A stretch of DNA of 33,999 nucleotides from a virus. Position numbers and translations under genes: made by a program. Position 1 is the first letter of the stretch. Each line of letters starts with the position of its first letter. The notes beneath the pieces are model-generated. The model ran no database searches. It had not been told where the DNA came from and worked only from the letters and a program-made list of their open reading frames with translations. The stretch lies in IMG/VR virus record IMGVR_UViG_3300034012_001166, positions 1 through 33,999 of that record, one strand, 5' to 3'. Positions 2,225 to 17,927 of the stretch are shown here, in pieces.

Positions 2225-3676
2225 TTATTTTTTGTAATTGTCATATATATACTGGCCTATCATTAATAAAGCAGCGGCTGCTAAACCTCCAAGGACAGCA
2301 GCTGTCATATGAGACGGAGAATATCCTAACATTTTCATTTCTGGGGTTATAATATCTCCAAGACTAGCTATATAACGAGCTAAAGCACCTCCTCCAAATA
2401 AACCACCTAAAAATAATGCTCCATAATTACCTTCTTCTTCACCTAATGTTTTTGCTTTTTTAGCAAAAGCTAAAGCTATTTTATAAACATCTTGAGGATT
2501 AACATCAATATCTCCTTCATTTAAAGAAATATTAAATTTAGCTAATATTTTATTTAATTCTTCTGTTGCTTTTGGGTCAGCAGCTATCTTATCAGCTATA
2601 GCTTTTAATTTAGGATTTGATTTTAATTGATCTATATTATTAGCAATATCTTTTGCTATTTTTTCTGGTGTTGGTGCTTCTTGTTGGTCTTCAGATTCTC
2701 CAATTAGTTCATCATCTGGAGATATTCCTAAAATTTTTCTGGATATACCATGGATTATTAATGATGCTACTAAACTAATAACTGGGCCTACGAATGCTCC
2801 GAAACTCCATGGACTCATATCTATTAAATAGTTAATAACAAATCCAAATGGAAGACCACCTAATGCTAATAGGTTTAGACCAGTTAAATTTTTAACTAAT
2901 CTTACAACTTCGTATGCTATTTTGTCTACTGTTTCTTCAGCTCCTTCTTTTAAATCTTCAGGAGTTTTAGCATCTTTATCTAGGTTGATAGCATCTACTT
3001 TAGTCATTATATCTTCTAAAGAAGGAGCACCTTTAGCTTCAGCTAAATTAAATTTAGCTTTAAAGTTTTCTTTGTCTTTTTCAGACATTTTAGTCACAAC
3101 AGAATTAATAAGTTTATCAAAAGCAGGTAAACTTGCTATCTTATCTTTAACTTTATTTAAAGCTCCAGATAATGATATTTCTTCTAATTGATTCTCAATT
3201 AATCTTTTTTTTTGATTGTATTGAGCTTCAGTAATTACACCTGCTAATTTTTGCATTTTAAGGAATGATTCATTTATTGCTTCTTCTTCCTCCATTGTGT
3301 AATCCATTTCAGGAACTATAGCATTATCCATACTATCCATTGCACTTCCTTCTTCAACTTCAGCTTCTTCAACTGGTTCGTCAGTTACTACTTCTTTACC
3401 TTTGTTTTTCTTAGCTTTAACCTTTTCTAATTTTTCTTTAGATTTTTCAAGAGTTTTTAAATGTTTTTTAAGTTCATTTAATTTAGTAGGATCTACTAAT
3501 TCTTGCATTTCTTCAAGGCTTTCAGCCATTTCAATTTTTTTGTTTACTTTATCAATAGCTTCAGTGTAAGCATTTAATTTAGCTTCCATTGCTGCGTTTT
3601 CTGCAACATCTTCAATCTCTTTAAGATTGTTGCTAATTGATTCTCTTATGATTGAACGTAGTCTGTTAATTTCCAT
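2225..3676 (-). CDS. Tagged coiled-coil membrane-active phage protein (483 aa), unknown function
   Basis: Regions in order: an amphipathic leader MEINRLRSIIRESI (1-14), a charged coiled coil (about 25-95), an acidic Glu-rich linker (95-135), and an internal motif FLKMQKLAGVITEAQY (138-153). A helical region follows, then two hydrophobic blocks at about 269-312 and 415-478. The second block is rich in Gly/Ala (LGGLAAAALLMIGQYIYD) and is a clear transmembrane segment near the C-terminus. No enzyme motif is visible. The internal motif is nearly identical to the N-terminus of the next gene upstream (3712-4314), so the two proteins share a module. VITE-A (cut after residue 150) resembles a prohead-protease site. 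Membrane segments on a possible virion-packaged protein suggest a role in DNA entry, but that is inference. Confidence 0.65.
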   Translation of the reverse strand: MEINRLRSIIRESISNNLKEIEDVAENAAMEAKLNAYTEAIDKVNKKIEMAESLEEMQELVDPTKLNELKKHLKTLEKSKEKLEKVKAKKNKGKEVVTDEPVEEAEVEEGSAMDSMDNAIVPEMDYTMEEEEAINESFLKMQKLAGVITEAQYNQKKRLIENQLEEISLSGALNKVKDKIASLPAFDKLINSVVTKMSEKDKENFKAKFNLAEAKGAPSLEDIMTKVDAINLDKDAKTPEDLKEGAEETVDKIAYEVVRLVKNLTGLNLLALGGLPFGFVINYLIDMSPWSFGAFVGPVISLVASLIIHGISRKILGISPDDELIGESEDQQEAPTPEKIAKDIANNIDQLKSNPKLKAIADKIAADPKATEELNKILAKFNISLNEGDIDVNPQDVYKIALAFAKKAKTLGEEEGNYGALFLGGLFGGGALARYIASLGDIITPEMKMLGYSPSHMTAAVLGGLAAAALLMIGQYIYDNYKK

Positions 3677-3711: not shown

Positions 3712-4314
3712 TCAAATTTGTCCTTTAACTTTAGATGCTATTTGAGCTATTTCTATCGCTTTAACCCCACCTAAAGCACTTTCAATAGCTGTTAAGATAG
3801 GATGAGAACTACTTAATACAGTTTTTAAAGCGTTACCAGCTGCTATACTTAGAATTACACCATATAATATTTTAGCTAGTGATACTAATTTTTGTTCATC
3901 TATTTTATTATCAGGTAACATCCATAATTGTTTACCAAATTTAGTAAATTTAATAGCAGCTATTATAGCTTTTATATAAAATTTTTCCCATTTATGGCCA
4001 AATTTAATAATATTTTTGGCTACAGTATTTTCATCTTTACCAACAAATGGTCTAGTTATAATACTTATACCTTTTCCTAACCATTCTATTAATTTTGGAG
4101 CGGCTAATAATCCACTAATTACTAAACCTACAACTGATTCTTCAAGAGGTTGTTCTTCAATTTCATCTAAAGAACTTAAATCTTGTAAAGCGTTAACTCC
4201 TGATGATAATGCTTGATCTATTTCTTGCTCTTCAGATTCTACTATTAGAGTAGCATATTGGCTTTCAGTTATTAAACCAGCCGTTTTTTGCATTTTTAAA
4301 AATTCTTTGTTCAT
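3712..4314 (-). CDS. Tagged hydrophobic phage protein (200 aa), unknown function
   Basis: The chain starts MNKEFLKMQKTAGLITESQY (residues 1-20), closely matching residues 138-153 of the 483-residue protein encoded next. It continues into an acidic segment (about 25-60) and then a hydrophobic, basic half. That half has likely membrane-associated helices at about 62-75 (VGLVISGLLAAP), around 110-120, and at 145-160 (ILYGVILSIAAG). No catalytic motif is recognisable. LITE-S after residue 17 could be a protease site like those in neighbouring proteins. The next gene upstream ends one base away, so the two are probably translated together. An internal virion protein that inserts into the host membrane is one possibility; a simple scaffold or membrane-anchor role is another. 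Confidence 0.6.
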   Translation of the reverse strand: MNKEFLKMQKTAGLITESQYATLIVESEEQEIDQALSSGVNALQDLSSLDEIEEQPLEESVVGLVISGLLAAPKLIEWLGKGISIITRPFVGKDENTVAKNIIKFGHKWEKFYIKAIIAAIKFTKFGKQLWMLPDNKIDEQKLVSLAKILYGVILSIAAGNALKTVLSSSHPILTAIESALGGVKAIEIAQIASKVKGQI

Positions 4315-4315
4315 T

Positions 4316-7300
4316 TTATACAGTTTTTTTCTCTACAGATTTATTTAATTTGAAATTTCTAACACCTTTAATTGCTCTAATGTCAGTAAATAATTGTTGT
4401 AAATCTTCATCTTTAAATCCATTAGGATATGGATGTGGATCTACTTTCATTTTAATTATTGTATAGTAGTTAGGATTGCTAAATGCAGATGATTCACCTG
4501 ATAAGTCATAATCTTTACTTGATACAATTGTTATACCAGGTAATGAGCGTATATCAGATAATATATCTTTTTGTGGACGATCTTCAGTGTTAGTTAATAA
4601 TAATCCTTCAATATTGTATTGAGTAGATTCTTCTTTAATTATCTTTAAAGTTAACTTACCATTACCTTTAATAACACGATGCCATTCACCTTTAGGTATT
4701 GTAATAGGTTGATTCATAGAAATTGGTAGTTGATTTTCTAATTGTATTTTCCAATCAGTTTTACCTACAATTTCTACTATTCGGTTTTCATTATCACGAT
4801 GCCATTTTAATTCAATAGGATCAATATTCTCATCAAACTCACGAATAATATGTTCATTAGTTACTTCTAAATCTTTATAAGGTTTAGTTTTAACTTTAGA
4901 TTTAATTTCCTCTAGTTCTTCTGGTGTTGCTGCTCCCATTGCTATTCGTAATATGTCTTCTGTTTCACGTAAGTTACGAGCTGTTAAAGCATCTATAAAG
5001 TTACCTACTCTACCCATATTAAACGCGCTAGTAGCGGTTATAATAAAGTGTCTTGCCTCAGGTTGGAATGATGCTTGTCCTATCATAGTACCACTAGCTA
5101 AACGAATGATATACATTCTACTTTGACCAGCAGATATAATTCTAGTAACTCGTCCTCTGTCTCCTAATGCTCTATTACGACCTGCTACTCCATTGTCATT
5201 AGCTACTAATGTACCTGATAATATTCTACTTCTAAGTGGAGCTGGTAAGGCAGTAAATCCTTGTTCTAAACCTGCTCCAACAATTGCTTGTCGTACAGCA
5301 TCATTTACTTGGCCAGTAGTTGTAGGTGGTGTAGCCGCTGCTGCGGTTGCTGTTCTAGGTGTTCTAGTACCTCTAACTGCTCCCGCAGGTGGTCTTGTTC
5401 CTAGTATTATAGCTACTTTAGCTGGGGTAAGATTAGCTCTAAGTAAATTACCTGTTTGTGGACTAAGTTTTCTACTCTCAGATGGATTATTTTGATTTAT
5501 AATATACCATGTTCCTTCATATTGAGCAGGTTTGTATGTGTTATCAGCTGTTAAAGGAGGATTAGCTGCTAAGAATTTTGCTCCAGCGTAATATTGAGAA
5601 CTAGCTAAAGGAAGGAGTTGAGTAGAATCATAAGCTAAATTTTGAGATCTTAAATAATTAAAATATTCAGACCATATTTCTTGATTTGCCATTTTTCCAC
5701 TACCAAATCTTCCATCTTCTCTATAATTAAATGCTACAGAACTTCTATCTAAAGGATTATTTGTATTCCATAAATTAAGTTCATTCCCTGTACTACTAGG
5801 TATTATTATGAAATTATCATCTCCTTTTCTTACTATTCTTTTTTCTGATGGAGTTTGTTTCACTATTGAGGATATAGTTGACATAGGTATTGATGAAGGG
5901 ATGCTATCAAATTTTGAAATCATCCTTATAATACCATCTTGAATACCACTACCTACTGTGTCTGATTTTAATATACTTTGAACAGAGTCATCTTCAAATG
6001 GTACTGGTGTATATTCTCCATTTTCAGGTTTATATGCTTTAAAAGTATTTGTATCTAACACTATCTCGCCTTCATCAGTATTAGCTGTTACGATAGCTGA
6101 TTTAGAGTCTTCTTCTTTTGATTTTTCAATTACTTTATCAACAGTGTCTTTAGGTAAAAGATTATCTTTTGTTAACTTTAATAAAGCATCAAAAGGCATC
6201 TCATCAAATCTAGGTAAACTTTTTAATATACTACTTGTACGAGTGTTTATTTTAACATTAGGATATGTATCTTTCTCAGTAAATAAACCCATTGATACAT
6301 CATCACCATTAAATTTTAATTTAATTATAGCCTTATCATCATTAGAAACATAGTATCTTTCACTATTAGGAACATCAAGTAATCCACCATTAACTACTGC
6401 TTTTTTAGCTGAAAAAGGAATACCACGTGATTTTAAAGTTTCTGTAGATACTTTTGTAAATCTTCGAGCGTTAGCTATGATTGATTTTTGATTTTGGTTA
6501 GAGAAAGAATCAAATTCTTGTAATAAAGTATTTAAATCTATCATCCCATAGTTTTTAGCTACTACTGTAGCCATATCTTGATTGTCTGGGAGAATAGTTT
6601 TTACAAACTTTTCATTAGATATATCAGAAAAAAGTGTTTTTCCTTTTCTAATAATAAGATATCGTTCTTTAAAATCTGGTGGTGCTACTTCCCATTCTTC
6701 AACAGTCATAGCTTGATTAGCATATTGACGAGTTGATAGCTCAACTTTACTAACAGGAATGTATCTAAATATTCTTTCTAAACCTTGAACTGATGGGAAA
6801 TTTTGTTCAACAAATGACCATGGTTCCCATCTGTTCCATTCTGTTCCTCTACCACCAACATCATTGTTTGATCTATCTGATACTTTGTAAGTATTATCAC
6901 TACCTACTACAACAACAAAGAAACTTTTTCTATCACTATTTGGTAAGTTAGTATCTTTTACTAAATAAAATGTTGGATTTTTTCTATTTGAATCATAGCG
7001 ATAATTACCAAATGATCCTTTAGTGATACACCATTGCTCACCTCTACCAAACTTTAAACAGTTTTCTTCATTATGACCACTATAAATTATAAGACCATTT
7101 TCATTATAAACAACGTCTGGTATATTTGATACATCTTCATCATCATCTTCTTTACTTGAACCTTTATAAGCTGATACAAGTTTAATTAATGATTTTAATG
7201 GGTACTTAGCTAAATCTTTTTCAGTTACTTTAGGATTATTTTTTAATCGAGTATCAAAATAGTCAATATAGTCACTTAAATTTGTATCTGAGATTGTAAT

Positions 7301-7429
7301 GTTAAAATCATCTGCTTCTTGCTTAAATTTATCCATTAACTGTTGCTTAACTCTTGGAGCTAATGCCTCAGATAAATTGTTTGACCAATTGTTAACTAAA
7401 TGTTCTATTAATTTATGAATATTACTCAT
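4316..7429 (-). CDS. 1037-residue multidomain phage protein with WCIT motif, cupin-like and C-terminal alpha/beta domains
   Basis: The leader MSNIHKLIEHLVNNW ends in NLSE-A (E21-A22), a prohead-protease-like site. At about 120-137 lies an EENCLKFGRGEQWCIT segment, a Cys/Trp motif I recognise from large phage virion proteins of unknown function. An Ala/Pro/Thr-rich linker (about 683-712) is followed by a basic helical region (about 723-766). A cupin-like beta domain comes next (about 870-930), with WHRDNENR and IPKGEWHRVIKG carrying His residues in the expected places. A C-terminal alpha/beta domain (about 950-1030) resembles small ferredoxin-like folds. It is the largest protein of the tagged group and is probably packaged or structural. 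No enzyme activity can be assigned. The ATATTTATAA element lies just upstream of the ATG. Confidence 0.65.
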   Translation of the reverse strand: MSNIHKLIEHLVNNWSNNLSEALAPRVKQQLMDKFKQEADDFNITISDTNLSDYIDYFDTRLKNNPKVTEKDLAKYPLKSLIKLVSAYKGSSKEDDDEDVSNIPDVVYNENGLIIYSGHNEENCLKFGRGEQWCITKGSFGNYRYDSNRKNPTFYLVKDTNLPNSDRKSFFVVVVGSDNTYKVSDRSNNDVGGRGTEWNRWEPWSFVEQNFPSVQGLERIFRYIPVSKVELSTRQYANQAMTVEEWEVAPPDFKERYLIIRKGKTLFSDISNEKFVKTILPDNQDMATVVAKNYGMIDLNTLLQEFDSFSNQNQKSIIANARRFTKVSTETLKSRGIPFSAKKAVVNGGLLDVPNSERYYVSNDDKAIIKLKFNGDDVSMGLFTEKDTYPNVKINTRTSSILKSLPRFDEMPFDALLKLTKDNLLPKDTVDKVIEKSKEEDSKSAIVTANTDEGEIVLDTNTFKAYKPENGEYTPVPFEDDSVQSILKSDTVGSGIQDGIIRMISKFDSIPSSIPMSTISSIVKQTPSEKRIVRKGDDNFIIIPSSTGNELNLWNTNNPLDRSSVAFNYREDGRFGSGKMANQEIWSEYFNYLRSQNLAYDSTQLLPLASSQYYAGAKFLAANPPLTADNTYKPAQYEGTWYIINQNNPSESRKLSPQTGNLLRANLTPAKVAIILGTRPPAGAVRGTRTPRTATAAAATPPTTTGQVNDAVRQAIVGAGLEQGFTALPAPLRSRILSGTLVANDNGVAGRNRALGDRGRVTRIISAGQSRMYIIRLASGTMIGQASFQPEARHFIITATSAFNMGRVGNFIDALTARNLRETEDILRIAMGAATPEELEEIKSKVKTKPYKDLEVTNEHIIREFDENIDPIELKWHRDNENRIVEIVGKTDWKIQLENQLPISMNQPITIPKGEWHRVIKGNGKLTLKIIKEESTQYNIEGLLLTNTEDRPQKDILSDIRSLPGITIVSSKDYDLSGESSAFSNPNYYTIIKMKVDPHPYPNGFKDEDLQQLFTDIRAIKGVRNFKLNKSVEKKTV

Positions 7430-8078: not shown

Positions 8079-8438
8079 TTATTTTTTTATAGATTTAGTT
8101 TTCTTTTTAGATGCTTCTTTTTTAGTTGTGATGTATTCTAAAGCATTTTTTAAACGTTTTTTTACTTCAGGATCTTTAGCTCTACCATAAGCCGCTCTAA
8201 CACGTTGGTGAATTAAATTAATAATTTGGGATTTACGAGCGTGTGGTTTTGACTTAAATGATGTTTTAGATAAAGTATCTTTAATATCTTGAACAGTTTT
8301 AAATTTAATACGTACTGTGTCCGTTGGATCTTCATCTGTGTATAAACGACGACCTGAACCTTTAGGTTTTTTACCAGTACCTACTTTAGGATCACCTTCT
8401 AATAGGATTTTATTTAGTATATCTACTAATTTAATCAT
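8079..8438 (-). CDS. Tagged, very basic phage protein (119 aa), possible DNA-binding internal protein
   Basis: The leader MIKLVDILNKILLEG has L-L-E-G at residues 12-15, an almost ideal T4-type prohead-protease site. The remainder is strongly basic: KPKGSGRRLYTDEDPTDTV, then a helical region (about 60-100), then a Lys tail (KKKTKSIKK). The KPKGSGRRLYTDE segment is one I know from many uncharacterised large-phage proteins. If cleaved after E14, the mature product would be a small polycation suited to neutralising packaged DNA, like the T4 internal proteins. The ATG overlaps the stop codon region of the upstream gene by four bases (8435-8438). The packaging role is inferred from the tag and the charge. 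Confidence 0.65.
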   Translation of the reverse strand: MIKLVDILNKILLEGDPKVGTGKKPKGSGRRLYTDEDPTDTVRIKFKTVQDIKDTLSKTSFKSKPHARKSQIINLIHQRVRAAYGRAKDPEVKKRLKNALEYITTKKEASKKKTKSIKK

Positions 8439-8893
8439 TTTGTTTTACCCCAAGTTTTACCTTTGCCTTTCTTTTTACATCCAGCTGGTGTAGGACGACA
8501 TGATGGGTATTTAGCCCGTTTTTCGCCTTCTTTTCTACCACAAGATTTATATCCACCTTTTCCATCAGGTGCATTACAATCTACCCATCCACCTTCTTTA
8601 CCTTTAGCACCTCTACGTTTAAACCATTTATAAAGTGATTCGTCTTCATTTAATATTTTTTGAATTACTTCTTTTAATCTAGCATATCCTGATCCATAAG
8701 GAGCTGCTTTACCAGATTGTGGATCATCTGTTTCTTTTAAGTCTTTCCAAATTTTACCTTTACGACATCTAACAATAGCACCTGACTTATAAGCAGATGG
8801 TTTATCATAGCGACGATCAGCAATACGTTTGCAGCGATCTGCTTTTTTCTTTTCTTCTAAAAGAATTTGTTCTATTAATTGTGTAATATTCAT
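8435..8893 (-). CDS. Two-module basic Cys-containing phage protein with two leader-like segments (152 aa)
   Basis: The leader MNITQLIEQILLEE (1-14) precedes a basic module (about 15-68) with DRCKRIADRRYDKPSAYKSG and Cys 21 and 43. A second leader-like stretch, RLKEVIQKILNED (72-84), precedes a second module. That module contains WVDCNAPDGKGGYKSCGR (103-120) and a KYPSCRPTPAGCKKKG tail, with Cys 106, 118, 132 and 139 as possible zinc ligands. The second module resembles the Cys-containing domain named DUF6321 in phage annotations, and the first resembles DUF5872-type segments; I cannot confirm either without a profile search. The tag-module-tag-module layout suggests maturation into two peptides. 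It is highly basic overall and probably binds DNA. Confidence 0.65.
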   Translation of the reverse strand: MNITQLIEQILLEEKKKADRCKRIADRRYDKPSAYKSGAIVRCRKGKIWKDLKETDDPQSGKAAPYGSGYARLKEVIQKILNEDESLYKWFKRRGAKGKEGGWVDCNAPDGKGGYKSCGRKEGEKRAKYPSCRPTPAGCKKKGKGKTWGKTK

Positions 8894-8894
8894 A

Positions 8895-9539
8895 TCACCA
8901 GAATCCTGAAAATGTTGTTTTAAATCCTAATAACTTTGCGTAACGAGGAAGACGACATGACCAGTAACTAGCTTTTGTTCTATCTTTCTTTTGTGGGCAG
9001 TTATGACGTTTAGAAAATGCTGAGCGTGCCTTAGAGTTATTTAATTTAGCACGTAGTCCACCACCTGCCATACCAAATGATACTTTTTTAATACGTTTGG
9101 TTTTAGGATCTTTAACATAAACATAGAATTTTTTAGAACCACCACGTTTTGGTTTACCTAACGCTGGTTGTTTCTTTTCTTCTTCTAATTCTACTTCTGT
9201 TAATATTTCTAATTCCATCATTGGTAAGTCTAAAGGTACTATTTCACCTTCAAACATCCCAAAACGACCTAAATCTGTATTTTCAAATAATTTTTTATCT
9301 TCAGCTTGAAGTTCAATAATACCTTGTTTCCATAGTATACGAGCTTCATGAATTAACTCTATATGTGATTTAGAACCAGGACGAAATATATTTTCATGGA
9401 TTTGGATTTTATTAGAGATATGGTATCTCATTTCCTCAGATATAGGAGAATTATATTGTTTAGATTCATTTAATGTTGGAGCAACATTAGGTTGTTCTAG
9501 TAAAGCTGATTTTATTGCTTCTATTATTAGTTGTTTCAT
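8895..9539 (-). CDS. Tagged two-domain conserved phage protein (214 aa)
   Basis: The leader MKQLIIEAIKSALLEQ (1-16) precedes an acidic alpha-helical domain (about 32-110). That domain has NIFRPGSKSHIELIHEAR and GRFGMFEGEIVPLDLPM, a conserved phage domain of unknown function. A Glu-rich linker follows, then a strongly basic C-terminal domain (about 125-205) with KFYVYVKDPKTKRIKKVSFG, then SKRHNCPQKKDRTKASYWSC and RLPRYA. The second domain is one I recognise as widespread in cyanophages and other T4-like phages, without an assigned function. Candidate cleavage positions are E15 and E25 (TLNE-S). The fusion of an acidic and a basic phage domain behind one leader fits the modular cargo pattern of the neighbours. 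Its four-base overlap (9536-9539) with the upstream gene implies translational coupling. Confidence 0.65.
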   Translation of the reverse strand: MKQLIIEAIKSALLEQPNVAPTLNESKQYNSPISEEMRYHISNKIQIHENIFRPGSKSHIELIHEARILWKQGIIELQAEDKKLFENTDLGRFGMFEGEIVPLDLPMMELEILTEVELEEEKKQPALGKPKRGGSKKFYVYVKDPKTKRIKKVSFGMAGGGLRAKLNNSKARSAFSKRHNCPQKKDRTKASYWSCRLPRYAKLLGFKTTFSGFW

Positions 9540-11452: not shown

Positions 11453-12010
11453 TTATGCTGGTAATGTTTCTTCAGGTGTTTCTTCAGTTGGTGGTGTTTC
11501 TTCAGTTGGTGTTTCTGGGGTTGTTTCATCTGCTGGTATTTCTCCTCCTGTTGGTACTTCACCTACTGGTGAGTCTTTATCTGGTTCTGCTCCTCCACCA
11601 TAGCGTAATATACGAGCTATAGCTGCTGCAGCACGTTGTTCTTCATTTAAACTAGCTAAATAGAATTTTTTACCTTCAACTTGAGCAATCCAAGAACGTT
11701 CAGTGTATATTAGATAGAAATGTTGATCATTAGCTAATATAATTTTAAATGTAGTAGGACGAGGAGCTACCCACCATATATCAGATATAAAATCTCCATA
11801 TTGGTCTGTAAGTAAATCTATTATAACTTCTTTTAGTTTAGGAAATTTAGCTAATACAGGAAATAATTCTTCCTCAAAGTTAACATCATCTGGTGTAACA
11901 CCAAATGTATCTTCTTGTGCTTCTATTGATGTTTCACCTGCTGTTTTAGCAGCATAAACACGTTTAGCTATAGCTTGTATTTTATCTACTAGTTCCTTTT
12001 TACTTGCCAT
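11453..12010 (-). CDS. Conserved phage structural-type protein with acidic Pro/Thr/Glu tail (185 aa)
   Basis: The N-terminal helix (MASKKELVDKIQAIAKRVY) and a compact domain (about 50-136) include DIWWVAPRPTTFKII, an ERSWIAQVEGKKFYL segment and AAIARILRYGG. I associate this domain with uncharacterised proteins of T4-like cyanophages and marine phages. The last 45 residues are a low-complexity acidic tail of repeated T-P-E-E-T units, from an imperfect DNA repeat at about 11458-11530. The fold and role are unknown. No leader of the Leu/Glu type is evident, although the first helix is amphipathic. It lies one base after the next gene upstream and two bases before the spanin-like gene, so it is co-transcribed. 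A disordered tail of this kind may mediate binding or be removed on maturation. Confidence 0.6.
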   Translation of the reverse strand: MASKKELVDKIQAIAKRVYAAKTAGETSIEAQEDTFGVTPDDVNFEEELFPVLAKFPKLKEVIIDLLTDQYGDFISDIWWVAPRPTTFKIILANDQHFYLIYTERSWIAQVEGKKFYLASLNEEQRAAAAIARILRYGGGAEPDKDSPVGEVPTGGEIPADETTPETPTEETPPTEETPEETLPA

Positions 12011-12011
12011 T

Positions 12012-12680
12012 TTATTTATCTAAAGTGTATTCTGTTCTTTCGTCTATTTCTGGCTTGTTAGCTGCTTGAAATCCTAAATATTGGCTAACTGATGCTATAT
12101 AGTCAGCTGCTTTAGTGATCTTACTTTGTACCCATGCTTCTAATTGAGTATCGTCATCTAACATTTGCATTAACTCTTGAGAGTTTTTAACTAAGCGATA
12201 TAATTCAGATTTAGCCATTTCTCCTTCATAATCAACTTCTTCTTTAAGATCTACCCCACGTCCTTTTAATATATCAGCTTTAGTTACTTTACCATCACCT
12301 GTTAAGTCAGGAAATTCTTTACTTTTTTTCTCACTTACTGGAGGTGTAGATAATGCTTTTTTAATTACTTCTTTTAATTTAGTATCACTCATAGTCTGTA
12401 CTTGTTTTTTAGCTGTGTTGATTGCGCGACCCCACAATATATTTTCTGCGCTATTACCATGTTTAGCAACAGCATTCATTATTGCTTTATCATCAGCTTT
12501 CATAGCTGAGTATACATCTTTTGCTCTGTCTAAGACTGCGTCTGATAATCCCTCATTAATAGGTTCAGAAGCATATAGAGCTCTCATATAAGCCTTAGCT
12601 TTTTTAACAGATGAAGAACATCCTTTCTTCTTACCTGTCTCTTTATTATAAACACATTTGCCTTTTAATTTGTATGGCAT
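12012..12680 (-). CDS. Modular phage protein with dockerin-like calcium loop (222 aa)
   Basis: Four parts are visible. A basic Cys-containing N-terminal module (MPYKLKGKCVYNKETGKKKG) ends in PINE-G (E43-G44), a prohead-protease-like site. A helical module (about 44-95) is followed by a leader-like helix, TKLKEVIKKAL (about 98-110). DLTGDGKVTKADIL (about 123-136) is a single EF-hand or dockerin-type calcium-binding loop with the expected Asp and Gly positions. The C-terminal domain (about 150-205, from YEGEMAKSELYRLV to WVQSKITKAADYIASV) recurs in many T4-like phage proteins of unknown function. The gene sits just after a hairpin terminator, so it probably has its own start point or depends on read-through. 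It belongs with the modular, possibly processed cargo proteins. Confidence 0.65.
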   Translation of the reverse strand: MPYKLKGKCVYNKETGKKKGCSSSVKKAKAYMRALYASEPINEGLSDAVLDRAKDVYSAMKADDKAIMNAVAKHGNSAENILWGRAINTAKKQVQTMSDTKLKEVIKKALSTPPVSEKKSKEFPDLTGDGKVTKADILKGRGVDLKEEVDYEGEMAKSELYRLVKNSQELMQMLDDDTQLEAWVQSKITKAADYIASVSQYLGFQAANKPEIDERTEYTLDK

Positions 12681-14490: not shown

Positions 14491-14946
14491 TTACTTTGAT
14501 GGAACCTTTTCTATATTACATTTTATTTTAGCACTATCTAAAATTACTTTTAAATCATTTTCCATTTGAACTAAAGTAAGTGTATTTTTAGATTGAGGGA
14601 ATCTTAAAGACTCACCTTCAACTTCAAAGTTAAATTTATTAGGATTTGCTAACTTTTCTTTAAATTTATTTATTTCAGCAGCCGTTTTAGTGGGAAATGC
14701 TTCTCCTCTTTGTTTTTCTAATGATTTTCTTTTGGCTGGATTTTGTGGGCCAAAGTAATCTTCTAAAGCTGATTTAGAAATCTTAGCAAATAGTTTTTCA
14801 TAATTCTTAGGATTCTTAATTGCTTCTTTTACTTTTTCAATAGTTGAACCAATTGGGGTTAACAATAAATCATTTGTTTGTTTATTGATTGAAAATGTTG
14901 CTTCATCTCCCTCATTTTCTAATAGTTTTACTAAACTGTATTTCAT
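14491..14946 (-). CDS. Tagged small phage protein of unknown function (151 aa)
   Basis: The start MKYSLVKLLENEGDE is leader-like and is followed by a soluble, mixed-charge domain without recognisable motifs. A KxxE-rich helical region spans about 35-85, and a beta-rich end (about 100-150) contains FEVEGESLRFPQSKNTLTLV. The start overlaps the end of the HAD phosphatase gene by four bases (14943-14946), so the two are translationally coupled. Gene order ties it to the kinase, nucleotidyltransferase and phosphatase set, but no function can be given. Conservation in other phages would need a homology search. Confidence 0.5.
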   Translation of the reverse strand: MKYSLVKLLENEGDEATFSINKQTNDLLLTPIGSTIEKVKEAIKNPKNYEKLFAKISKSALEDYFGPQNPAKRKSLEKQRGEAFPTKTAAEINKFKEKLANPNKFNFEVEGESLRFPQSKNTLTLVQMENDLKVILDSAKIKCNIEKVPSK

Positions 14947-15443
14947 AATCCTAGTTCTTTTAATTGTTTAATTGTATCTGCTGTAGATGTATGTAATATT
15001 CCTATTCCACCTTTATCTCTCCATTGTTGTATATTTTTTTCCATATCATCAATAAGTATTTTATTTTCCCCTGAGTATTTTTGTTTGAATCTTGCTGGTG
15101 TTAAAATCATTTTAGCATCAGGTAAGTTATTTTTCTTCCATACTCGTTTACCTATTTTAGATGATTCTTCTTGTGAAGGTGCTGATAGTAATGTTGGATT
15201 AAATGGTTTAATATAATTCCATAATGTTTGTCCATCAGGTAACCATTTTAATTTGATCCAAAATGAAGCTCCCATTTTATGTATTGGTTCCCAAAACTCA
15301 GGACCTTCACCTGCGGCAGACATTGGTTTGCCTGTTGCTTCTTCATAACCTTTTTCAAAATCAACTAATACCCCATCTAAATCACAATAGATAGTATATT
15401 TGTTGTTTTCAACTTCTTCTAATAACTCTTTTAATTTAATCAT
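14943..15443 (-). CDS. Tagged HAD-superfamily phosphatase, 5'(3')-nucleotidase-like (166 aa)
   Basis: After the leader MIKLKELLEEVENN comes a complete HAD core. Motif I is DLDGVLVDF (residues 21-29, nucleophile Asp21 and acid Asp23). Motif II is LLSAPS in the middle of the chain, followed by a Lys-rich motif III region (ARFKQKY), and motif IV is LIDDMEKN. The small cap and about 165-residue length resemble the 5'(3')-deoxyribonucleotidase type of phage phosphatases, which dephosphorylate nucleotides; the substrate is not certain. Its ATG overlaps the upstream nucleotidyltransferase gene by eight bases. The leader lies outside the catalytic fold and matches that of the kinase (MIKLTDLLKEV), although the enzymes are unrelated. 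This is the best evidence that the leader is a separate targeting element. Confidence 0.8.
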   Translation of the reverse strand: MIKLKELLEEVENNKYTIYCDLDGVLVDFEKGYEEATGKPMSAAGEGPEFWEPIHKMGASFWIKLKWLPDGQTLWNYIKPFNPTLLSAPSQEESSKIGKRVWKKNNLPDAKMILTPARFKQKYSGENKILIDDMEKNIQQWRDKGGIGILHTSTADTIKQLKELGL

Positions 15444-17079
15444 TTTTCTTTATTGAATTTTCCCAACCTCTAAATAATAAACCATTACCATACTCATATG
15501 CTTCACGTTCTAATTCTTTTAGATAATCGTCTTCATTTATATTTTGACCTTGTATATCATTTAATTTTCCTTCTAAATTTTGTTTATGATGTACCATTTC
15601 ATGTGCAAAAGAGCGCAATACATCTTTAGGATGACGTTTTAGTGTGTATAACGTGATTGATTTATCATTTGGGTTATAATACGCTGTTTTACCAAAGAAA
15701 TCATCAGCATTCTTAACATCATCTTCAACAAAATTAACATCTGGTAATGGTTCAATATTAATATGATCCATCATGTAACTTGTTAGTGATACTAATTTTT
15801 TTATAAAGTCAGTATTATTTTCTAAACCTTTTTTACTAATATTGGATATTATTATTTTGTCTTTATCTTTGTCAACTTTAAAATCTGATGGTGATAAATT
15901 CTTATAATAATCTTTATAGTAATCTACTCTAGTAGGTTCTGATGATATGTTTAAATCTAATTGTTTGTCTTGGATTGGTTCAAAGAAATTATTTGTTTCT
16001 TTAGGAGTATTATCATGTCCACATTTATGACATATGAATAAATCATCACCACCATCTTTTATCTTCCAAGTCCAACCACAATCATCACAAACTATACTGT
16101 CATCTTGAATCTGTTCAAATGTTAATTTAGTACTTGTAGTTTGAAAATTAGGTTTACGCATTATAGTTTTAGCTACCGCTACTACTTTATCACGTAATTG
16201 ACTTTTTTTAATATCTTTAGTTAATGGGATATTAATATCAGTATCTGAGTCTGTTGCTACTACTTCTCCTTGGTCTAATAAATTAGCTAACTCATCTTTT
16301 TCATCTGATAGTTTATCAAAGAAATCATATAGCTCGTCTGTTTTAATTCCAGGACGATTACGTTTATCATTAACTCTATCAATAAAATGAGGTGGTATGT
16401 CAATATCAATTGGATTTAAAACACTATCAGCATAGTCATCAATATCATCAATCTCAGGTTCAGGTACAACCTCATTAACCCAAGTTGTTATTTCTTCACT
16501 TTCAGACATTGGATTAAGTATACTATATACTTCTTCTCTTTCACTATCTGATAACTCAATTGGTAAGTAGTTAAATAATGATTCTTTATCTGTTAGTACC
16601 TGTCTAGCTTTAGTACCACTAACATCATTAGCAGTGACAATATTAATTGCTTCTAAATTATCACGAGTATCTACCGCTTTAGAGCGTTTATAAAAATCTT
16701 CAAAATCTTGGTTATTACCTTGTCTAGATCCTAAAAACCATTTAATATCCTCAAATGGATGCTCTTTAGCATATCTATAAATTGAAGATACTGGGTTAGG
16801 TGAAGGTATAATTTCAACATTATCTGGTAGATACTTTTTATAGATGTTCCATATAGCTAATGATTGATCTTGAGTAATATCTGATCTTCCTCCTCCTGTT
16901 CCAACAAATATAATAAATTTGTTTGGGTTATATTTTTCTATAGCTTTTTTAACTACTTCAAGATGACCCTTAGTTGGTGGTTGAAACCCACCTCCAAATA
17001 AACCTACAGTTAATCCTTCACCTAAAGAATCAACCTCAGTTAAAAATGGTAATATAAGTGATTTAACTAATGAGCTCAT
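15436..17079 (-). CDS. Nucleotidyltransferase - zinc ribbon - zincin metallopeptidase fusion (547 aa)
   Basis: The leader MSSLVKSLILPFLTEV ends in SLGE-G (E21-G22). A cytidylyltransferase-type domain follows: GLFGGGFQPPTKGHLEVV (26-43) has the PTxGH form of the HxGH nucleotide-binding motif, and VSGTKARQVL (about 153-162) matches the ISSTxxR motif. Such enzymes make adenylyl or cytidylyl derivatives (e.g. NMN or pantetheine phosphate adenylyltransferases); the substrate is unknown. A middle region (about 215-320) carries a conserved phage segment. A C4 zinc ribbon (CDDCGWTWK to CHKCGHD, about 331-355) is followed by a C-terminal zincin with AHEMVHHKQNLEG (HExxH at about residue 492) and EREAYEYG. 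Three catalytic or binding modules behind one leader is an unusual fusion. The start overlaps the upstream kinase gene by four bases. Confidence 0.75.
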   Translation of the reverse strand: MSSLVKSLILPFLTEVDSLGEGLTVGLFGGGFQPPTKGHLEVVKKAIEKYNPNKFIIFVGTGGGRSDITQDQSLAIWNIYKKYLPDNVEIIPSPNPVSSIYRYAKEHPFEDIKWFLGSRQGNNQDFEDFYKRSKAVDTRDNLEAINIVTANDVSGTKARQVLTDKESLFNYLPIELSDSEREEVYSILNPMSESEEITTWVNEVVPEPEIDDIDDYADSVLNPIDIDIPPHFIDRVNDKRNRPGIKTDELYDFFDKLSDEKDELANLLDQGEVVATDSDTDINIPLTKDIKKSQLRDKVVAVAKTIMRKPNFQTTSTKLTFEQIQDDSIVCDDCGWTWKIKDGGDDLFICHKCGHDNTPKETNNFFEPIQDKQLDLNISSEPTRVDYYKDYYKNLSPSDFKVDKDKDKIIISNISKKGLENNTDFIKKLVSLTSYMMDHINIEPLPDVNFVEDDVKNADDFFGKTAYYNPNDKSITLYTLKRHPKDVLRSFAHEMVHHKQNLEGKLNDIQGQNINEDDYLKELEREAYEYGNGLLFRGWENSIKKND

Positions 17080-17873
17080 TTAATAAAATTATTAACAACA
17101 GTAGGTAATTGTTTACTATCTATGGGATTCAATTTAGATTGAATATCCCCGTAAGTATTAGCTATTTTATCAATGTTTTGATAAAGTTGTTGTTTTGTTT
17201 TTTCTCTTGATTTTTCTCGTTTAGCTTTTTCTTCAGGTGATAACTCAGTATCATCTTTTCTGAATGATGAAGTAAATTGACCTGTAGATAATAAACTGTC
17301 AAAATATTCTTTTAGAGTACCGTCTTTATATGCTTTTTCAAAGTTAGCAATTTCTGCTTCTTCTTCTGGGCCTGATGGTGTATTTACTAAAATAAAATTG
17401 TCTCCAAATATATTTTTATATTCATCTAATAAATTATAAACATTAGCCCAAGTACCTAAAACACCAGCAGCTGGTACTTTACGTTCACGCTTATAGTTTC
17501 TTAAAAATGATACTATAGGATGAGCATAAACCATCAACATCATAACATCATATCCACCTTCATTTAACATATCTAATGTTGGTTGAAGTGTAGATAGATT
17601 GGATGCTGTGGTATCGTAAATTAAATTACGTTTAGCTGCTATAGCGTTAGGTAAATCTTGTTTTCTTATTTGAGATGAGGCAGCAGATAAATTACCAAAC
17701 ATTGGTGAGTCTTTATCTTCTACATATTTGTCTGCATTTAAGTTTTCAAATCCTTTTAATTGAGAATCAATTGTTTTTAGGATTGTTGATTTACCTACTG
17801 ATGCTCCTCCAGCCATTATTATGGCTTTTGGTTTATTTTGTACTTCTTTTAGTAAGTCAGTTAGTTTTATCAT
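17076..17873 (-). CDS. Tagged P-loop kinase, zeta-toxin-like (265 aa)
   Basis: The leader MIKLTDLLKEV precedes KAIIMAGGASVGKST, whose GGASVGKST (22-30) is a Walker A motif. NADKYVEDKD and the RNLIYDTTAS strand follow, as in zeta-toxin/AAA_33-type kinases. A lid-like Arg-rich stretch (NYKRERKVP) fits phosphotransfer. The C-terminus is charged and helical. Zeta-type enzymes phosphorylate small metabolites such as UDP-N-acetylglucosamine, but phage relatives may act on nucleotides or RNA; the substrate is not visible. The start is taken at 17873, not the upstream in-frame ATG at 17921. The longer frame would run through the terminator hairpin, and the tag begins exactly at 17873. The stop overlaps the next start (ATGA). 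Confidence 0.75.
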   Translation of the reverse strand: MIKLTDLLKEVQNKPKAIIMAGGASVGKSTILKTIDSQLKGFENLNADKYVEDKDSPMFGNLSAASSQIRKQDLPNAIAAKRNLIYDTTASNLSTLQPTLDMLNEGGYDVMMLMVYAHPIVSFLRNYKRERKVPAAGVLGTWANVYNLLDEYKNIFGDNFILVNTPSGPEEEAEIANFEKAYKDGTLKEYFDSLLSTGQFTSSFRKDDTELSPEEKAKREKSREKTKQQLYQNIDKIANTYGDIQSKLNPIDSKQLPTVVNNFIK

Positions 17874-17888
17874 CTTGCTAAATATAAT

Positions 17889-17910
17889 AAAAAAATTTGG
17901 CGAAGCCAAA
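17889..17910 (-). terminator. Intrinsic terminator after the exonuclease gene
   Basis: The coding strand forms a TTTGGC/GCCAAA stem (17896-17910) with a TTC loop, followed at once by seven T residues (17889-17895). It ends the baseplate-replication transcript before the tagged kinase. It lies inside the over-long frame that starts at 17921. Confidence 0.85.
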
Positions 17911-17917
17911 CATTTTA

Positions 17918-17927
17918 TCATAAATAT
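17918..17927 (-). promoter_or_regulatory. ATATTTATGA element overlapping the exonuclease stop codon
   Basis: This is a nine-of-ten match to the repeated element. Its first base overlaps the exonuclease stop codon (TAA at 17927-17929), and the terminator lies between it and the kinase start. If it were a promoter, its transcript would meet the terminator within about 10-20 bases. This weakens a simple promoter reading at this site. Confidence 0.3.

Follow-up and report, generated by a model that had tools for sequence, protein, structure and literature searches.

A predicted cargo polyprotein of T4-type Bacteroidetes phages with prohead protease-type motifs at its module boundaries

The prohead protease of phage T4, gp21, cuts after L/I-X-E: The internal proteins of T4 carry capsid-targeting propeptides of 10–19 aa, and gp22, gp67, and gp68 are each cut by gp21 into several fragments (PMC9026906). 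In SPN3US, 13 of the 14 reported sites remove N-terminal propeptides and one is C-terminal. A further group, the polyvalent proteins, are mosaic multidomain phage proteins that are thought to be injected; they have been likened to polyproteins, and their release by an embedded metallopeptidase domain has been proposed (Iyer et al. 2017, PMC5512222). In the literature we searched, which lay mostly outside subscription journals, we found no account of a prohead protease processing cargo polyproteins.

Here, we analyzed a 152-aa protein encoded on a 34-kb virus fragment (IMG/VR record IMGVR_UViG_3300034012_001166; the whole stretch of 33,999 nucleotides is referred to as the window). Among named phages, immuto of Flavobacterium (160 kb) is the closest relative, with 75% identity. 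The parts of the protein and further leader-bearing proteins of the window are listed in table 1. The [LIV]xE triplets of the protein end precisely at residues 13, 54, and 83, and the N-terminal leader is matched by a second leader-like helix, RLKEVIQKILNED (residues ~72–84, or about 70–84), immediately N-terminal to module 2. Both this helix and the second basic, Cys-containing module had been noted in a preliminary description of the locus and are borne out. Helices are predicted at residues 3–17 and 70–84 with low confidence (AlphaFold; mean pLDDT 51.6, pTM 0.31), and a structure-based identification was dropped because the model is too weak. A domain search of the sequence found no peptidase domain and no published polyvalent-protein domain. 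The family DUF5872 (PF19197) matches weakly over both modules (E=1e-4), but membership was rejected, the score of 23.3 bits being below the Pfam gathering cut-off of 27.5. The positive charge of the module peptides suggests that they may bind nucleic acids.

Table 1.—Features of the 152-aa protein and of other leader-bearing proteins in the window
Feature	Residues	Position	Strand	Remarks
152-aa two-module ORF (P0001), leader–module 1–linker/leader–module 2		8435..8893	minus	ATG to stop
N-terminal leader MNITQLIEQILLE	1–13	8855..8893	minus	Predicted capsid-targeting propeptide, ends LLE
Module 1	14–54	8732..8854	minus	Two invariant Cys, net +10, ends WKDLKE
Linker/internal leader TDDPQSGKAAPYGSGYARLKEVIQKILNE	55–83	8645..8731	minus	Net 0, ends LNE
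Module 2	84–152	8438..8644	minus	Four invariant Cys (alignment of relatives), net +14
119-aa neighbor		8079..8438	minus	Leader MIKLVDILNKILLE, then basic RRLYTDEDP module
214-aa neighbor		8895..9539	minus	Leader MKQLIIEAIKSALLE, C-terminal KPKRGGSKK module; PHROG 7595, E=1.2e-9
222-aa protein, TKLKEVIKKALSTPPVSE preceding EF-hand-like module		12330..12383	minus	Motif retained in 4/6 relatives
483-aa protein, FLKMQKLAGVITE	138–150	3227..3265	minus	Mobile element, N-terminal in 200-aa ORF (3712–4314)

Quite probably, the 152-aa protein is a cargo polyprotein that is targeted to the capsid and, inside the prohead, cut into peptides by a protease of the Peptidase_S77 (gp21) family. The carrier would be a T4-type Bacteroidetes (Flavobacterium-like) phage, and, by analogy with T4 IPIII, the N-terminal leader would direct the chain to the prohead core. 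Judging from the sequence and the rule of the protease family, cuts would fall after LLE13, LKE54, and LNE83, removing leader and linker and releasing two small basic Cys-containing peptides of ~41 and 69 aa, which would both remain in the head until their ejection along with the DNA. The modules are interchangeable units; relatives carry whole domains between the two sites. The cutting into separate peptides proposed in the preliminary description is plausible, as the junctions fit the protease rule.

The protein shares features with each of the systems above but also differs from each. Like T4 IPI–III and Alt, it has a short N-terminal leader ending in L/I-x-E (LLE13, within the ~7–65 aa of N-terminal propeptides with this ending) and small basic predicted products (+10 over 41 aa and +14 over 69 aa), and the S77 protease and a gp23-type capsid protein occur in the same phage group; unlike the T4 internal proteins, with one propeptide and one product, there are at least two modules per chain with a site at each boundary. 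Multiple gp21-type sites per chain are also found in T4 gp22, gp67, and gp68 (PMC9026906), but these are scaffold proteins whose fragments mostly exit the head, whereas the sites described here border conserved modules, which are also found as genes of their own. The head proteins of SPN3US and phiKZ are similar in being cut after x-x-E by a gp21-like protease (gp245 and gp175, respectively), in their long propeptides and in being ejected, but the sites reported for SPN3US do not divide a single chain into several cargo units. In its mosaicism the protein resembles the polyvalent proteins, and one relative (L129) contains the domain ART-PolyVal. Their embedded metallopeptidase, which is common but not universal among them, is lacking in the 152-aa protein, and release would here occur in trans by the prohead protease. 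The known parts would be the capsid-targeting propeptides of T4 and the polyvalent proteins, and the new element release in trans by a morphogenetic protease.

IMG/VR contains 379 relatives of the 152-aa protein, of which we examined the best 80, together with 80 from a second search, reduced to 45 non-redundant junctions preceding module 2. All 45 contain [LIV]xE, a motif with only two fixed residues, with the E two or four residues (once three) before an ESL anchor; in shuffled linkers, the motif was found at 19.0 ± 3.3 junctions (maximum 32). P1 is E in 45/45, and P3 is L in 31, I in 13, and V in one (L/I in 44/45), the L being encoded by several different codons, whereas P2 is occupied by nine kinds of residue. 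Immediately after module 1, a WKx[LIV]xE site is retained in 42/42 relatives. The linker in between measures 1 aa in six of these, 5–15 aa in 16, 16–35 aa in eight, and more than 35 aa in 12, the last representing whole domains placed between the modules; from 1 aa to more than 300 aa, both sites are retained. In the six relatives with a 1-aa linker, the helix is absent and the junction reads just LKE/DESL. As linker length is free while both sites are kept, the conserved feature is the pair of sites and not the helix. The repetition of the leader claimed in the preliminary description is correct in that a second helix is present, but conservation resides in the [L/I]xE site (E in 45/45, L/I in 44/45); the helix is less conserved than implied there, and in the window it comes with a mobile linker cassette.

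This cassette, DPQSGKAAPYGSGY..KE (DPQSGKAAPYGSGYxxxKE), occurs in at least four unrelated contexts; outside the 152-aa protein, it stands in front of modules of the zinc-ribbon-like and CW[KP]GY types and of a metallopeptidase-like domain. At N-terminal and internal positions alike, modules start shortly after [LIVF]xE: This holds for module 1 in 65 of 66 non-redundant relatives (motif at most 12 aa upstream), module 2 in 47/48, the 119-aa-type module in 8/10, a 5'-nucleotidase-like domain in 9/9, the zinc ribbon in 6/6, and the CW[KP]GY module in 7/7. L129 has the ADP-ribosyltransferase ART-PolyVal (PF18760, E=1.4e-9, above the cut-off) inserted between its two sites, and the same relative encodes a 212-aa chain consisting of a leader, the RRLYTDE module, the linker cassette, a zinc ribbon, and the CWKGY module. 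Several other inserts (L110, L143, L144, L157) contain ParB-like DGxHR strings, without a Pfam match at the cut-off used, which recall the ParB-type domains of polyvalent proteins.

Module 2 is found alone with its own leader in four relatives (L148, L327, L352, L355) and behind unrelated domains in three (L091, L097, L319). This separation, as well as the persistence of two [LIV]xE sites around linkers ranging from 1 aa to whole domains, argues against the possibility that the two modules form one functional protein, in which helix and linker are a mere spacer or pairing helix and remain uncut. We regard this as unlikely, although the subthreshold DUF5872 match spans both modules, and both are retained at 42 of the 45 junctions, all in S77 phages.

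As for the putative protease, Peptidase_S77 scores above the cut-off in immuto and in 11 of the 12 large records that carry tagged modules. S77 went undetected in two tagged MAG genomes (L165, L166), perhaps owing to incompleteness; the window itself encodes neither a prohead protease nor a capsid protein, the head-gene region lying outside the fragment. The gp23-type capsid proteins of the 11 S77 records have a predicted propeptide that ends at [LIV]xE. P3 of the capsid maturation site is mostly V (9/12), with L at P4, as against L/I at P3 of the module junctions. In immuto, proteins with an N-terminal-proximal [LIVMF][LIV]xE are concentrated at 100–130 kb, the region of the head and cargo genes (17/31 vs. 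26/162, p=1e-5).

Phages without a detectable S77 protease provide a natural control: Their modules are of the same kinds but are encoded by small, separate, leaderless genes. S77 was found in none of the 12 searched records that hold untagged module-2 genes, nor in any of six named phages (CRP-7, P-SCSP2, C72C1, CRP-901, CRP-902, and HTVC033P). In a wider set of module-2 genes, 31 in number, untagged and non-redundant, module 1 was never in the same ORF (0/31) but was a separate neighbor in 28, and [LIV]xE preceded module 2 in only one. It should be noted that the presence of S77 is confounded with genome size and lineage in this comparison and in that with the third lineage described below, that the relatives are mutually dependent, and that the searches were seeded with tagged or untagged queries. 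The gene order, module 1 followed by module 2, is the same, and since the modules are neighbors even when separate, they may act as a pair; this adjacency hints at a joint function and favors the single-protein alternative, whereas the missing motif in these phages speaks against it. In CRP-902, we considered a frameshift between the two modules, but the second frame has a GTG start, and two overlapping genes are the simpler solution. The module-2 gene with this start, overlapping that of module 1, is unannotated in CRP-902 (L086, ~8162–8392) and in the corresponding region of CRP-901 (L195).

The separate genes also bear on the origin of the chains, for which the preliminary description had suggested a fusion of ancestral tagged genes. 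The modules are indeed separable, and in three contigs (L087–L089), a downstream tagged module including its start Met is fused behind module 2. The direction is not supported, however, as the modules are untagged and separate in phages lacking S77, and S77 phages show cases of fusion as well as of splitting. A leader-bearing module 2 on its own is found in the four relatives named above; the 28 separate adjacent cases are untagged. That the internal leader is a functionless relic, the former N-terminus of a separate tagged gene, is very improbable: The leader with its Met is retained within the fusions of L087–L089, and a single 841-aa protein of immuto (_192) corresponds to two genes of the window, but a relic would be expected to decay, whereas E is kept at every junction and L/I at all but one, and relatives without the helix retain the site alone. 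Least likely of all is an uncut internal helix acting as a second capsid-targeting element that strengthens binding to the prohead core, for although the MQKLAG element described below occurs N-terminally, internally, C-terminally, and at the end of the gp22-like scaffold of immuto, as would a core-binding helix, many junctions have L/I-x-E and no helix.

The motif is conserved, the chains are modular, they are associated with S77, and the phages lacking S77 behave differently. With less confidence than for the 152-aa protein itself, we lean toward a polyprotein strategy of tailed phages, in which the prohead protease would act in trans on mosaic chains with one capsid-targeting leader, cutting them at L/I-x-E boundaries, the modules being encoded separately where S77 is missing. 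On a similar footing, we are inclined to see the mosaic modules of such chains as host-directed or DNA-binding, and the head protease as also processing the cocktail of ejected proteins. If this is true, the T4-type head protease is both a capsid maturation enzyme and a polyprotein processor, many proteins can be loaded with a single entry tag, and the polyvalent-protein concept is extended by a protease acting in trans. [L/I]xE at module boundaries in S77 phages would then predict, among the many unknown proteins of aquatic T4-type phages, those located in the head and their mature ends.

A third lineage, sampled via an intermediate query, contains tagged modules in the orders C-N, N-C, and CW-N-C. 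The motif is present in 25/30 cases (shuffled 7.1, maximum 14), with five of 30 lacking it in the tested window of residues. A leader of the type IIxEELxxVLxE begins standalone genes and is also found internally in fusions. S77 is missing in 14 of the 18 contigs, most of which also lack gp23 and are thus fragments without the head region. Two contigs with gp23 but no S77 end near the capsid gene, and in G029 and G040, S77 lies ~12 kb from it; truncation rather than absence therefore likely explains the missing S77.

Leaders of this kind are also found in other genes of the window. The RRLYTDEDP module of the 119-aa neighbor is internal in relatives, where it follows [LI]xE. For the family of the 214-aa neighbor, the window of the first regular expression was too short (11/37 matched); as its motif lies 13–17 aa upstream of the anchor, the family was excluded from the support for the motif. 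The internal leaders that the preliminary description had pointed out in two further proteins are both present: In the 222-aa protein, STPPVSE lies between TKLKEVIKKAL and the EF-hand-like module, and the FLKMQKLAGVITE element of the 483-aa protein is flanked by [LI]xE. An element FxxMQKLAG[IV]ITE is N-terminal, internal, or C-terminal depending on the protein (window 3712–4314 and 2225–3676; immuto _188 and _204), and a similar string, RWQKLAGIIK, stands at the end of the immuto gp22-like scaffold; with its weak SHOCT match, the element is possibly a prohead-core-binding helix.

The genes of the 222-aa protein and an adjacent 185-aa protein (window 11453–12680) correspond to parts of the single immuto gene _192, the second part being preceded by an internal leader-like helix, SKSELKEIMLEAYIEVLQE. 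Three enzyme-like proteins (window 14943–17921) have leaders with [LI]xE and may also be head cargo: a zeta-toxin-like kinase (PF06414, E=9.6e-13), a HAD 5'-nucleotidase-like protein, and a NadR-like nucleotidyltransferase fused to an M91-like peptidase region. Finally, a 1037-aa protein (window 4316–7429) ends in a KH-like domain, DILSDIRSLPGIT (residues ~950–1037), which recurs in the relatives L075 and L087–L089 as a separate tagged or fused unit.
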